DNA of 64,000 bases, taken from assembly GCF_001027925.1 (NCBI RefSeq), contig NZ_LECT01000023.1, forward strand, positions 62,001 to 126,000. Direction: 5' to 3'. The notes beneath the pieces were generated by a model, which was given only the letters and a program-made list of their open reading frames with translations, was not told the DNA's origin and made no database searches. Both the position numbers and the translations under genes were made by a program. Each line of letters begins with the position of its first letter. Within the stretch, counting starts at the first letter, position 1. Source of the stretch: Rhodopirellula islandica. GTDB taxonomy: Bacteria; Planctomycetota; Planctomycetia; Pirellulales; Pirellulaceae. Shown piece by piece: positions 24,987 through 29,255 of the stretch.

Positions 24987-25807
24987 AGGTGCGGTCCTTC
25001 AAAACCTAAGGCTTTTCGACAAATCGGGCCCTCACTACCTCAGGCCTTCCAACAGACTGGGTTTTTTTTCCAGCCCGGGTGACCGTCCGTTCGGCCGTCC
25101 AACAGATTACCAGATTGCTTCGGTGGGACGAATCACCAGGGTGGCGAGGCGTTCAAACGGAGGGGATTCTGGCTGGGAGTCCTTGCGGCGCAGCACTGCT
25201 CAAGTTGCGAGGGATTGCCGTCAAATCGATCTGACGGAAGAATGGCCCTCACTGTGCGATTGGTCCCGGTGAAACGATCGCTGGTAGGAAGCTGGCGGAC
25301 CGTCCACCAAATTGATTTCTGAAGAGTCAATGCGGTGACAGGGGGACAGGATTGGTTCCCCCCGGTGGGGCGCGAACTTCAGTCTGGAATGCGCAGAAAC
25401 TCCCTGAAAACAGGCGGAATCGGGGGCTTTGCTAGCAAAAAAAGCATTTGCTAGCACTACCTGTAGTGTCCACGGGCGACTTTTCCACAAGATATCGTTC
25501 TTGCTTGGTGTTGTGAAACTCCGCCTCTAATCTCCCCGCACATCAGACGCGACACCGTCGCCGCGCCGCTTATCATTCACCTCATTGGAAGAGTCCGGGA
25601 AGCAAAGCGACCAGTTTGTTTCATGATGAGACAGGCTGGATTGGTCTCCCATGATTGCCCTTTTCCCTGCCAGAACAGCAGGCGGCATCATGCGGCTGAG
25701 ACCACGCGGTTTTGATTCTCGCTCGATTGGATTCAGCTTCTAACTGCTGGGTCCAATGCTTGACCAGTGCGGGCCACACCAAACGCCGATACGAAGAGGA
25801 TCTTCCC
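24987..25807. other. Divergent 820-bp intergenic region without a recognised gene
   Basis: Lies between two divergent genes. I find no convincing coding frame or tRNA in it. The only notable structure is the cluster of palindromes at 25428-25467. A single DnaA-box-like TTTTCCACA at 25481 is alone and not evidence of an origin. The long size leaves room for promoters of both genes. Confidence 0.6.
25428..25467. promoter_or_regulatory. Paired TTTGCTAGCA sites and a CACTAC/GTAGTG palindrome
   Basis: TTTGCTAGCAAA (25428-25439) is a perfect 12-bp palindrome. The ten-base core TTTGCTAGCA recurs 19 bp later (25447-25456), roughly two helical turns. It runs into CACTAC-CT-GTAGTG (25454-25467). This spacing is what a dimeric regulator binding cooperatively would use. 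It lies about 340 bp before the amidotransferase-like gene and 440 bp before the oleA-like gene. The regulator is unknown. Confidence 0.45.
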
Positions 25808-26581
25808 ATGACGCGCAAGCCCCTGATTGGTTTGAACGCCGATTTCCGTGCCGCCGCCCGCAGCACCCCCGCGTTTGCTTACATCGCCGCCGGATACTAC
25901 GAAGCAATTATCAAAGCTGGTGGTATCCCGGTCTTGGTTCCCCCACAAGCCGATGAAGAATCGGTGGCCCGAGTTTTAGACGCAGTCGAAGGATTTTTGT
26001 TCATCGGCGGTGGCGACCTGGATCCTCGCAACGACGGATTCATGCTTCACCCAAGCGTTCGTCCGATGAGTGCGGGACGCGAAGACAGCGACCGCATGTT
26101 GATGGCCGAAATCGCTGAACGCCGGATGCCTGTCTTCGGAATTGGCGTCGGCATGCAGTTGATCAACGTCCAGCAGGGCGGCAACCTGTTCTTGCACATC
26201 AAAGAAGATTTGCCGGAAGCGGTGCCTCACTTTGACGGTCAAGACGTCAATCACCGCCACACACTGAATGTCGAAAGCGATTCGTTAATCGGACGCGTTT
26301 ACGGCGACGGCGAAATTCGCGTGACCAGTCGTCACCACATGGCGATCGATGAAGTTGCCCCTGGGTTCCGCGTCACCGCACGCTGCCCCGATGGCGTGAT
26401 CGAAGCCATCGAAAGCGAAATGATCGACTGGTTCGCTTTAGGAACGCAGTTCCACCCCGAATCCGAGGCTGCTTCGGCATTGGACATTCGGATCTTCGAG
26501 GAGTTCGTCGACGCTGTTCGCGAACGCAACCAAGAGTCTCCTGCGAAAGAGGGCGACGAAGCCTACCGTTTGGTTGCTTGA
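25808..26581 (+). CDS. Class I glutamine amidotransferase-fold protein (C26/PuuD-like) lacking the nucleophile
   Basis: The 257-residue product has the peptidase C26 layout: LFIGGGDLDP (about 64-73), the nucleophile-elbow segment FGIGVGMQLINV (110-121), SRHHMAID (174-181) and the His/Glu pair in QFHPES (His216, Glu218). Gamma-glutamyl-GABA hydrolases and other class I amidotransferases have Gly-Ile-Cys-Arg-Gly at the elbow. Here it reads Gly-Ile-Gly-Val-Gly, so the catalytic Cys is Gly113. The rest of the fold looks intact, so this may be a binding or regulatory pseudoenzyme, or one using another chemistry. The ATG at 25808 gives the usual start (MTRKPLIGLNADFR). A structured RNA candidate follows. 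Confidence 0.85.
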   Translation: MTRKPLIGLNADFRAAARSTPAFAYIAAGYYEAIIKAGGIPVLVPPQADEESVARVLDAVEGFLFIGGGDLDPRNDGFMLHPSVRPMSAGREDSDRMLMAEIAERRMPVFGIGVGMQLINVQQGGNLFLHIKEDLPEAVPHFDGQDVNHRHTLNVESDSLIGRVYGDGEIRVTSRHHMAIDEVAPGFRVTARCPDGVIEAIESEMIDWFALGTQFHPESEAASALDIRIFEEFVDAVRERNQESPAKEGDEAYRLVA

Positions 26582-26599
26582 GGATCGAAACGACACTAC

Positions 26600-26895
26600 G
26601 GAGAGGACGTTGACGAATTGCACGTTTTGATCCCTTCCCACCGGGTTCGCTGCCCACGGTTGTCCCGCGAGAACCGTTTCCGCCAAAGGATTGGCGGGTT
26701 GGCAGCACGGAAGCATCGCCTGATGCGGCGAACCCGGTGAGAATGGGACTCCTTGGCGGGAGTCCCTCGCCTTCCAGGATGAAGGTGGTTGGTGGTCATG
26801 GATCGACCCGATCGAAAATCCAATTCGGCAACACAACAAGTCACGGCTGACAAGTTCAACCGGGTGCGTTCCACTGGAGCGTGCCCGGTTTTTTT
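26600..26895 (+). ncRNA. Candidate structured noncoding RNA with intrinsic terminator
   Basis: A 12-bp perfect helix (26639-26650 with 26728-26739, CACCGGGTTCGC) closes a domain. Inside it are CTGCC/GGCAG (26650-26654 with 26701-26705), ACGGTT/AACCGT (26656-26661, 26672-26677), CCGCCAA-AGGA-TTGGCGG (26680-26697) and GCATC-GCCT-GATGC (26713-26726). Outside the domain follow GGGACTCC/GGAGTCCC (26745-26766), CCTTC/GAAGG (26770-26785), GATCG-ACC-CGATC (26801-26813) and a terminator. So many short-loop helices in one direction are unlikely by chance. It shows none of the conserved sequences I know for RNase P RNA, tmRNA, SRP RNA or 6S RNA. The 5' end is a guess, and no convincing promoter was seen. 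It could also be a long 3' UTR of the preceding gene. Confidence 0.6.
26859..26895 (+). terminator. Rho-independent terminator
   Basis: The hairpin ACCGGGTGCG...TGCCCGGT, with G-T pairs in its upper part, is followed by seven T. It ends the structured RNA candidate and would also end transcription from the amidotransferase-like gene. Confidence 0.85.
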
Positions 26896-26917
26896 ATGCG
26901 CCGGGAGCTCACTTGGT

Positions 26918-27074
26918 TTAGCTTTTAGCTTTTAGCTTCTAGCTTCTAGCTTCTAGCTTCTAGCTTCTAGCTTCTAGCTTCTAGCTTCTAGCTTCTAGCT
27001 TCTAGCTTCTAGCTTCTCGTGCTCGTACTCGTGCTCGTGCTCGTACTCGTACTCGTACTCGTACTCGTACTCGC
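26918..27074. repeat. Tandem array (TTCTAGC)n then (CTCGTG/CTCGTA)n
   Basis: Three TTTAGCT-like units, about thirteen TTCTAGC heptamers, then about ten CTCGTG/CTCGTA hexamers. Read on the minus strand it is hexamers followed by heptamers, the same order as the arrays at 19796 and 22448, and it abuts CGGGCTTCCGAGCCCG, the hairpin that also precedes the array at 22448. Confidence 0.95.
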
Positions 27075-27623
27075 CCGGTGGGCTTCCGAGCCCGTCGAAT
27101 CAATAGGAACCCGAAGCGCGAGTTTTGAAGTTGCGGATTGGCAGTGGGTTTTGTTGGCCAACGGCCAACATCAACCCACGCGTTTTGGGTTGAACTTGGC
27201 CGTTGGCCATTCAACGAAAAAACGCAACTTCAAAACTCACGCATCGGGTTTCCATGTCGACGAGCTTGGAAGCCCATTGCACGGGGACGGAAAACCTGGA
27301 GATCGTTTGGCGATCGTGCGACAAGCAACTGTCGTCGCTCCGCGACTTGCGACGGATGTTTCGTCGGCGTATGCCCTTGGGTTGAAAACCCAAGGCTTTC
27401 GGCTGTCGTCGCTCCGCGACTGGTGGTGTGTGTTGGGGGATCGGGCAACCGCGGAGCGGTGACATTTGTCAGCCTCGGGTTTCCAACCCGAGGTCTCGGT
27501 TGGAAGGCTCCTCGCTCACCAGCCTGCTGAATGAATCAGCCGGAACGCGCTAGCGTCCGGTTCGTCTTCGGTCACAGGGGAGCATCGTGCTCCCGGATGG
27601 TGCCACCCACCATCTCGCGCGCT
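27075..27623. repeat. Repeat-rich noncoding region left of the insertion sequence
   Basis: No gene is apparent. It contains perfect hairpins CCTTGGGTT-GAA-AACCCAAGG (around 27370) and CCTCGGGTTTCCAACCCGAGG (around 27473), repeated CCAACGGCCAAC and TCGTCGCTCCGCGACT motifs, and GATGGTG-CCACC-CACCATC (27597-27615). The last motif recurs three times on the other side of the insertion sequence. Confidence 0.75.
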
Positions 27624-27763: not shown

Positions 27764-27916
27764 ATGAACAAGTCTAACGGATTCGTTGCGTTGGCTGGAT
27801 CACTTGTGGATCAACTCGACATGCAATGCCTCAAGCAACTCACCGCCATCGCGGTATCGTTGATTGTCGCGGTACGCTCTTTTTTGGCGGGGCGATGTCA
27901 CACCTGCCTCGTTTGA
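27764..27916 (+). CDS. Short upstream frame of the insertion sequence
   Basis: This 50-residue frame starts with an ATG (MNKSNGFVALAGSL) and ends in an overlap with the transposase frame, which itself has no ATG near its beginning. The overlap contains a run of six T (27880-27885). The shift needed to join the two frames is +1 or -2, which transcript slippage on the T run could provide. It may therefore be the true N-terminus of the transposase. It may instead be a decayed start or a meaningless frame. Confidence 0.45.
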   Translation: MNKSNGFVALAGSLVDQLDMQCLKQLTAIAVSLIVAVRSFLAGRCHTCLV

Positions 27917-29255
27917 CCGGTTCGAGAGACGGATCGAAACACTCGTCCGTTCTCTGGGCCGGTTGATCATCCAGCACGCGCTCTCGAAACTCGAAAGCGA
28001 CGAGCGCCCCGGCGGCTTCCGTTTCGACAATGCGTCGTTTCGCGTCAATCGCAAGACCTTGCAAACCCTTCATACCCGTTTGGGAACGATCCGCTTTGAG
28101 CGATGGTATTTTCAAACTTCCGATGCCTGGTATCACGGACTCGCTCCGCTGGACGTTCGCTTGGGCGTAGTCGATGTTCGTCGCGGTTTCACCTCGGGAC
28201 GACTCTCTCCAGCACTGGCTGATGCGGTGGGGCGGTTGGCCGCTGAAATGCCTCAGCAAGCAGCCATCGAACAGATCGCTGAGCGGTTCGACGTCAAAAT
28301 GTCCGTCGATGCCTATCGTCGCAACGTCGATAACATTCATCGGCTCACCAGTGAGCACAGCGACGAACAGGCCATCGAGCAGCTGATCCTGTGGACTGCC
28401 GCAGCCAACCAAAGCCAAGGGGAACGGTGTGTTTTGCTGCAATTGGGGCGTGACGGGGTTCACGTGCCGCTTAGACCGGGATGGAAAGAGTCGGGCTGCG
28501 CGACGCTCAGTCTCTTTGATCGCAAAGGGCGGCGACTGGGAACGATCTACCTTGGCGAGGCACCACGCAAAGACCAGTTGTTCCTCACGCGTCGGCTCGA
28601 TCGGATTCTCAAAGCGTACTTCACGCGATTGCCGTGCGAGGTCCCGGTGCTGCGTTACGTGACGGACGCTGGAGCGCTTCCGCAGAGCTACTTCAAGAAC
28701 ACGCTTGCTCAGATGAAGCATCCGGTCAGTGGCGAGCCGCTGTCGTGGAGCTGGGGTGTCGACTTCTTTCATGCTTGCGAGTATCTGACGAAACTCGGCG
28801 ATGGTCTGTTTGGCAGCGACACCAACGAAGCTCATCGCTGGGCCGAGGAGAGTAGGCGGATTCTTCGTCATCAAGACGATGGCGTCAGCGCGGTGATTCG
28901 GCGAGCAGCTCAGCAGGAGCGGCGTCATGGTTTAAAGGGCAAACGTGCGGACTTCGACAGCGGCCTTGGTTACCTGAAGAAGTATCGCCCGCACATGGAC
29001 TACCAACAGAGGCGTGCTGCCGGCGAGCCGATCGGTAGCGGCATTACCGAGGCGGGATGCAAGGTCATTTTCAATCAACGGTTTAAGCAATCCGGGATGC
29101 GTTGGAAGCGTGACTCAATGCAAGCAATCATCGATCTTCGAGCCACCCATCGAAGTGGGTTGTGGAAAGGCGTTTGGCGGAAAATTCTATTCCCCGAGCA
29201 CCAGCTGCCACCGATAAACAGATTGCTTGGCTCAAAGAAGTCGCTGGCAGCTTAG
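27864..29255 (+). CDS. Transposase, ISKra4-like
   Basis: The 463-codon frame ends 29 bp before the right inverted repeat. The C-terminal block EPIGSGITEAGCKVIFNQRF followed by KQSGMRWKRD is the hallmark of ISKra4-group transposases, in which an Ile-Gly-Ser-Gly segment and a catalytic Glu precede a conserved Trp. The central VTDAGALPQSYF and DFFHACEYLTKLGDGLFG segments fit the other acidic catalytic positions. The first codon of the frame is TTG, and the first in-frame Met lies about 128 residues in, so the protein is likely produced by fusion with the short upstream frame. It catalyses movement of the element that contains it. Confidence 0.8.
   Translation: MSRYALFWRGDVTPASFDRFERRIETLVRSLGRLIIQHALSKLESDERPGGFRFDNASFRVNRKTLQTLHTRLGTIRFERWYFQTSDAWYHGLAPLDVRLGVVDVRRGFTSGRLSPALADAVGRLAAEMPQQAAIEQIAERFDVKMSVDAYRRNVDNIHRLTSEHSDEQAIEQLILWTAAANQSQGERCVLLQLGRDGVHVPLRPGWKESGCATLSLFDRKGRRLGTIYLGEAPRKDQLFLTRRLDRILKAYFTRLPCEVPVLRYVTDAGALPQSYFKNTLAQMKHPVSGEPLSWSWGVDFFHACEYLTKLGDGLFGSDTNEAHRWAEESRRILRHQDDGVSAVIRRAAQQERRHGLKGKRADFDSGLGYLKKYRPHMDYQQRRAAGEPIGSGITEAGCKVIFNQRFKQSGMRWKRDSMQAIIDLRATHRSGLWKGVWRKILFPEHQLPPINRLLGSKKSLAA

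Follow-up and report, generated by a model that had tools for sequence, protein, structure and literature searches.

The window analysed here is a 64-kb stretch (64,000 nt) of the Rhodopirellula islandica genome. Its forward strand carries a gene for an amidotransferase-fold protein and, starting 14 nt past the stop codon of that gene, a structured RNA of 300 nt (26596–26895, +; Table 1). An earlier sequence-only reading had described a structured RNA of about 300 nt starting at 26600, and this description withstands comparison with shuffled sequences: the segment as first delimited has a folding energy of −141.5 kcal/mol, where shuffled sequences average −108.9 (z −5.64; none of 200 shuffles as good), and the refined ends give z −5.95 (none of 100 shuffles as good). 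Conservation places the 5′ edge at 26596, 4 nt ahead of the former start, where the motif reads CTANGGAGAG in the relatives, with C, T, A or G at N. The 12-bp perfect helix around three hairpins that had been proposed was recovered, with CACCGGGTTCGC (26639–26650) pairing with GCGAACCCGGTG (26728–26739) around hairpins at 26656–26677, 26679–26698 and 26705–26714. Further hairpins (26745–26766, 26768–26787, 26794–26808 and 26840–26851) and the terminator stem (26858–26890) come after it, all in one orientation.

Table 1. Features of the amidotransferase-fold gene and its 3′ RNA, in positions of the 64-kb window.
Feature	Position	Strand	Remarks
Conserved element TTTGCTAGCA-N9-TTTGCTAGCA	25428..25456	+	About 350 nt ahead of the gene; possible control site of the unit
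Upstream gene, 257 aa, Peptidase_C26/GATase fold, Val for the nucleophile Cys	25808..26581	+	Probably same transcript as the RNA
Whole RNA	26596..26895	+	Fold z −5.95; edges conserved in relatives; 3′ end in terminator T run
5′ motif CTACGGAGAG, GGA site 1 (ACGGA, 26598–26602)	26596..26605	+	Predicted unpaired 0.74
Multibranch core, closed by 12-bp perfect helix	26639..26739	+	Helix 26639–26650 / 26728–26739
Hairpin TCCGCCA-AAGGAT-TGGCGGG, hexaloop, GGA site 2	26679..26698	+	Predicted unpaired 1.0
Hairpin GC-ACGGAA-GC, hexaloop, GGA site 3, C-G closing pair	26705..26714	+	Predicted unpaired 0.95
Hairpin without loop GGA (GGA in stem)	26745..26766	+	Both-sided changes among first-type homologues
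Hairpin CGCCTTC-CAGGAT-GAAGGTG, hexaloop, GGA site 4	26768..26787	+	Predicted unpaired 1.0
Hairpin GGTC-ATGGATC-GACC, seven-base loop, GGA site 5	26794..26808	+	Predicted unpaired 0.68
Conserved hairpin GTCACGGCTGAC ahead of the terminator, GGC here	26840..26851	+	Conserved across relatives
Intrinsic terminator, 15-bp stem 26858–26890, then T run	26858..26897	+	Same orientation as the hairpins

The sequence-only reading had also placed the RNA outside the known classes, and a search of the whole 64-kb window against Rfam agrees: no family reached its gathering score, which rules out a known Rfam class. Within 26400–27100, six matches were obtained at E up to 10, all far under the gathering score; the CsrB, CsrC, RsmX, RsmY and RsmZ families gave no match at gathering score in the 64 kb and are absent from the matches at E ≤ 10, and neither tRNA nor tmRNA was found in the window. 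A coding sequence is likewise ruled out, since one-base indels inside the conserved part disfavour a hidden frame and, by eye, no common start codon follows GGAGAG. The single match of the RNA in its own genome rules out a repeated or mobile element.

Turning to the upstream gene, the absence of the catalytic Cys noted in the sequence-only reading extends well beyond this genome. The gene is present in 57 of 60 relatives, and a scan of GTDB species genomes yielded 61 loci. The nucleophile Cys is replaced in all 60 readable loci (T 28, V 23, A 6, S 3), a count drawn from 91 relative loci of which 31 fell outside the motif and in which some genomes are counted twice. As judged from these residues, the gene product is a conserved pseudoenzyme. 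One locus, L030 (PPHI01000085.1), is titled Rhodopirellula baltica BR-MGV, and the protein encoded there is 74% identical, like those of Stieleria-type loci (72–73%), compared with 95% for R. europaea; its species name may be wrong, as judged from this one gene.

How the RNA is transcribed was approached through conservation and promoter scans. The end of the gene and the spacer (26558–26587, 30 nt) are 50% identical in the close set of homologues, and conservation climbs again at the RNA; the last 24 codons of the gene have no added silent conservation (third positions 0.575 vs 0.69). A sigma-70-like scan of 25500–27100 returned one site, far upstream at 25549–25576 and at chance level (0.5 expected). 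Between gene and RNA neither a promoter-like site nor added conservation was seen, with the proviso that planctomycete promoters are poorly known. Ahead of the gene, two copies of TTTGCTAGCA lie 19 bp apart and are followed by the inverted repeat CACTACCTGTAGTG, the whole stretch spanning 25428–25468. The exact double site was found in 12 of the 13 genus genomes, and the remaining 47 genomes searched lack it. Eleven of the 13 have it upstream of the amidotransferase-fold gene; in G011 the exact match lies elsewhere, and G010 has a second copy. Weaker matches extend to other genera. Together with the inverted repeat, the double site looks like a candidate operator of a dedicated regulator. The lack of a promoter sign between gene and RNA and this conserved upstream element favour transcription from upstream of the gene, and we infer that the RNA is probably made as the 3′ end of the pseudoenzyme mRNA. 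The sequence-only reading had credited the RNA with its own terminator and had left it undecided between a stand-alone RNA and a 3′ UTR; the predicted terminator is confirmed, but it probably belongs to the whole transcription unit, given the missing promoter sign. Of the two options, we tentatively prefer a 3′-UTR RNA that may be processed to an RNA with a promoter of its own.

The surroundings of the unit include some further features. The intergenic stretch at 25470–25640, ahead of the gene, is 74–96% identical in five close relatives and may be a 5′ leader, a promoter or another RNA. Straight after the terminator, 26917–27075 consists of tandem short units, AGCTTCT and then CTCGTA/CTCGTG, and related tandem runs also lie 3′ of the RNA in G002 (L069). 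An open frame resembling an ISKra4-like transposase occupies 27864–29255, at 152.8 of 205 bits, under the curated cut-off.

All 13 genus genomes examined have a counterpart of the RNA, placed 3′ of the same gene. By DNA search, six of the 13, own genome included, match once each. Five homologues form the close set, a sixth being left out as 98% identical; across these five the 300 nt are 83.9% identical and positions 26635–26750 94.9%, compared with 69% at third codon positions in the first 200 codons of the gene. The RNAs of the other seven genomes are diverged yet alignable. A profile built from the six close RNAs finds their 3′ part at E values of 3e-7 to 1.4e-3, a range in which wrong-strand matches to the palindromic terminator also fall (to E 2e-5); because these scores lean on the terminator they prove nothing alone, and it is the alignment that establishes the seven. 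Read and aligned, these second-type RNAs have a plan in common: CTANGGAGAG at the 5′ end, hairpins, GTCAYGG..GAC and a terminator. The loop of GGA site 4 reads ATGGAC in the L006/L073 homologue and AAGGAT in others, and the Rubripirellula-type counterpart of hairpin 26840–26851 is GTCAGGATTGAC, with GGA. In Stieleria, Roseiconus and K23_9, among others, no such RNA was found in the place 3′ of the gene.

The related genomes support the structure by covariation as well as by conservation, the two checks that had been suggested for it. In the genus alignment of the seven second-type RNAs, hairpin 1 (columns 125–142) reads ACGUCGACGGAUCGACGU, GCGUCGACGGAUCGACGC, GCGCCCAUGGAUGGGUGC, GGGUCGAUGGACCGACCU and GAACUGAAGGAUCAGUUC, among others; all six of its pairs are changed on both sides, every lettered cell pairs, and GGA is constant. 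Over the whole structure, which was taken from one of the seven and whose terminator columns are misaligned in several, covariation is 0.327 compared with 0.166 after shuffling (reached in 0 of 500), and slid partners give at most 0.145. For 13 Rubripirellula-type loci, several of them closely related and the structure again taken from one, the corresponding values are 0.277 and 0.157 (0 of 500), with slid partners at 0.089 or less. In the first type (six genomes), 12 of 101 pairs have both-sided changes that keep pairing, and the core hardly varies. The binding site of CsrA/RsmE is an ANGGAN hexaloop, according to the binding rule in the available part of PMC7652899. Compensating stem changes under a constant ANGGAN loop would thus reveal what the RNA displays, a predicted CsrA/RsmE binding site, and it is this significance of the repeated GGA loops that the sequence-only reading, sound on the structured RNA itself, had missed.

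The GGA loops also stand out in a motif-neutral test. Every hexaloop hairpin with a stem of at least 4 bp in the first 440 nt 3′ of the gene was sorted by the triplet at loop positions 3–5, using 52 loci with few common 12-mers kept from 65 with at least 400 nt past the gene. GGA ranks first of the 64 triplets, with 43 occurrences over 22 loci where dinucleotide shuffles predict 5.83; the runner-up, CTG, has 11 (4.10 expected), and GGA occurs 10 times on the reverse strand. The test put no constraint on position 1 of the loop, yet 38 of the 43 have A there; at position 2 there are 18 C, 14 A, 7 T and 4 G, and the stem closes with C-G in 23 hairpins and with G-C in 10. With stems relaxed to at least 3 bp, GGA still comes first (61 vs 17.82). 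In the same vein, 60 loci (the 61 gene loci less one without a stop) contain 51 ANGGAN hairpins of at least 4 bp in the 27.0 kb 3′ of the gene (1.89/kb) and 49 in 725 kb elsewhere (0.07/kb), and nowhere else in these loci do three such hairpins cluster within 300 nt. Twenty-five of these loci have at least one, some ten of the 25 being close kin of one another; 19 have at least two, and one has nine. The strict hairpin is absent 3′ of the gene from the other 35, Stieleria, Roseiconus and K23_9 included. Across 16 RNAs whose ends were set by the analyst, GGA comes out as the most open of the 64 triplets by mean predicted unpairedness (0.60), with AT-rich TAA close behind at 0.58 and GGC, GGG and GGT at 0.16–0.17.

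Taken without its relatives, the window copy is not significant, and the claim rests on comparison. The copy contains nine GGA, four of them ANGGA, a number reached by 20 of 300 shuffles; its two hexaloop hairpins are equalled in 9 of 200, and it does not stand out when the whole 64-kb window is scanned. Its predicted open sites are at 26600, 26688, 26709, 26777 and 26800 (0.68–1.0), with 26605 half open (0.40) and three GGA in stems. At the other extreme, the 420 nt past the gene in Candidatus Laterigemmans baculatus contain 17 ANGGA where 2.87 are expected, a count matched by none of 300 shuffles, as well as nine GGA hexaloop hairpins against an expectation of 0.58 (none of 200 shuffles), and Rubripirellula-type loci have sites near the SELEX consensus, such as ACAAGGAUGU. 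Seven distant loci (L040–L043, L046, L048 and L050) possess a compact element in which a long terminator stem encloses a hairpin of the GC-ACGGAA-GC type, together with one or more additional GGA sites. The long stem appears in six of the seven single-sequence folds, L043 being the exception, and in an alignment of six compact elements 6 of 17 stem pairs have both-sided changes that preserve pairing. The compact and long forms are presumably related by descent. A possible alternative, attenuator-like pairing of the compact form was noted by eye. Two further searches were unproductive: a pattern of three CANGGANG sites is at chance level, with hits in 15 of 60 genomes and in 11 of 60 for the reversed-pattern control, and missed the window RNA, while the Laterigemmans RNA, searched at DNA level against 199 family genomes, gave three matches, one full length at 100% and two of about 35 bases, and so yielded no useful new homologue.

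Candidate protein partners are encoded alongside the RNA. CsrA (PF02599) is found in all 60 relatives, and the own genome has five matches, four of which were read; one of these sits inside a 261-codon open frame (L145). FliW (PF02623) is found in all 20 genomes searched, and the own genome encodes both proteins, with csrA about 0.8 kb after fliW on the same strand (G000:C7:116858–118131). This CsrA retains Leu4 and Arg44, which we take to be RNA-binding residues. It matches the RNA-bound RsmE chain 2JPP at E 3.6e-13.

These features invite comparison with CsrB/CsrC and RsmX/Y/Z of Gammaproteobacteria. Likeness is seen in several GGA hairpin loops, clear over the relatives and weak in the window copy alone; in their form, mostly ANGGAN hexaloops and here typically closed by C-G; in the 3′ intrinsic terminator; in a CsrA encoded in the same genome and retaining RNA-binding residues; and in a number of sites that varies between relatives, as it does in known CsrA sponges. 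In contrast, the planctomycete RNA has no Rfam match, belongs to another phylum, shares its genome with FliW, and follows a protein gene directly, nothing promoter-like having been seen in the spacer. On paper, the likeness would be one of function rather than of Rfam membership. The UvrY/GacA box upstream of CsrB/RsmZ, TGTAAG-N6-CTTACA, is missing from the window even when two mismatches are allowed (chance expectation 0.43). To our knowledge, control by CsrA-decoy RNAs has so far come mainly from gammaproteobacteria.

As far as the available text of a 2015 survey goes (PMC4682653), BarA-UvrY-driven sRNA antagonists were proposed to be gammaproteobacterial, with FliW as the possible CsrA antagonist of Planctomycetes; FliW is a protein rather than an RNA, and would be a second, parallel antagonist here. 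The joint action of FliW and sRNAs is described as still to be determined in the accessible portion of PMC7652899, and that of PMC13287468 presents RsmZ as a sponge that takes up as many as five RsmE dimers. A sponge carried on an mRNA is not new as such, given the flaA mRNA leader of Campylobacter jejuni, which acts as a CsrA sponge beside FliW (PMC4894983, in part). In both cases GGA hairpins are carried on an mRNA and the genome encodes CsrA and FliW; the flaA leader, as outlined there, lies at the 5′ end of a CsrA target mRNA and has two GGA stem-loops, whereas the planctomycete RNA is a long 3′ element with more sites. The excerpts of PMC9029176 and PMC10729762 add nothing on planctomycete sponges, and among the open-access matches listed (a scope that leaves aside subscription papers and preprints) there was neither a planctomycete CsrA-binding RNA nor a study of CsrA control in planctomycetes.

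From the computed fold, the conservation, the stems that covary under constant GGA loops, the loop enrichment and the canonical CsrA in the genome, we consider it likely that the RNA is a CsrA-binding decoy working like CsrB/RsmZ from the 3′ end of a pseudoenzyme mRNA. In the mechanism we infer, the amidotransferase-fold gene and the RNA would be transcribed as a unit ending at the common terminator, and RNase cleavage may free the RNA from the mRNA. Its hairpins would offer ANGGAN-type hexaloops, each held by one RNA-binding face of a CsrA dimer, so that several dimers could load per RNA molecule, and transcription of the unit would draw CsrA off its mRNA targets.

The same loops could instead form a cis-acting site, with CsrA on the 3′ UTR controlling the stability, termination or translation of the amidotransferase-fold mRNA and no meaningful titration taking place. 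This we regard as unlikely, though it accounts well for an RNA that, wherever found, has the same gene ahead of it in the same orientation and nothing promoter-like separating the two, and for the compact element of distant relatives, with its few GGA sites inside the terminator stem; action in cis is conceivable even for the multi-site form. Five open sites in the window copy, and as many as 17 ANGGA in that of Ca. Laterigemmans, nevertheless exceed what a cis site needs, and the number differs between relatives, as it does among known sponges. Against the decoy itself stand the weak showing of the window copy by itself, the 35 loci of the gene without a strict ANGGAN hairpin and the missing UvrY/GacA box. 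A further point is that the core at 26635–26750 is kept more strictly, as far as identity in the five close relatives can tell, than spaced CsrA sites would need, and it would suit an RNA with another main role (a base-pairing sRNA, a decoy for another GGA-binding protein, or a catalytic or scaffold RNA) for which the GGA loops are secondary. We think such a role improbable: loops that begin with A, leave position 2 free, continue with GGA and are closed by C-G reproduce the CsrA/RsmE rule in detail, and seven other genus members have not retained the core as such but do retain the GGA loops. That the RNA is an extended terminator or mRNA-stabilising 3′ structure with no regulatory protein partner is very improbable, for although it ends in the terminator of the unit and directly follows the stop codon, a terminator requires neither 300 nt nor constant GGA loops over covarying stems.

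If the RNA is a CsrA decoy, a broader picture is quite possible, which we put forward tentatively. The Rhodopirellula group would have a two-antagonist Csr system, consisting of FliW and a dedicated RNA sponge that began as the two-site terminator element behind a pseudoenzyme gene and grew into a CsrB-like decoy with up to 17 sites, and CsrB-like RNAs would have arisen outside Gammaproteobacteria by 3′-UTR expansion. The series from two-site terminator elements to the 17-site RNA may record the growth of an RNA sponge, and a single genome with CsrA, FliW and a conserved RNA bearing CsrA-type loops makes the question of CsrA control in these bacteria directly testable.
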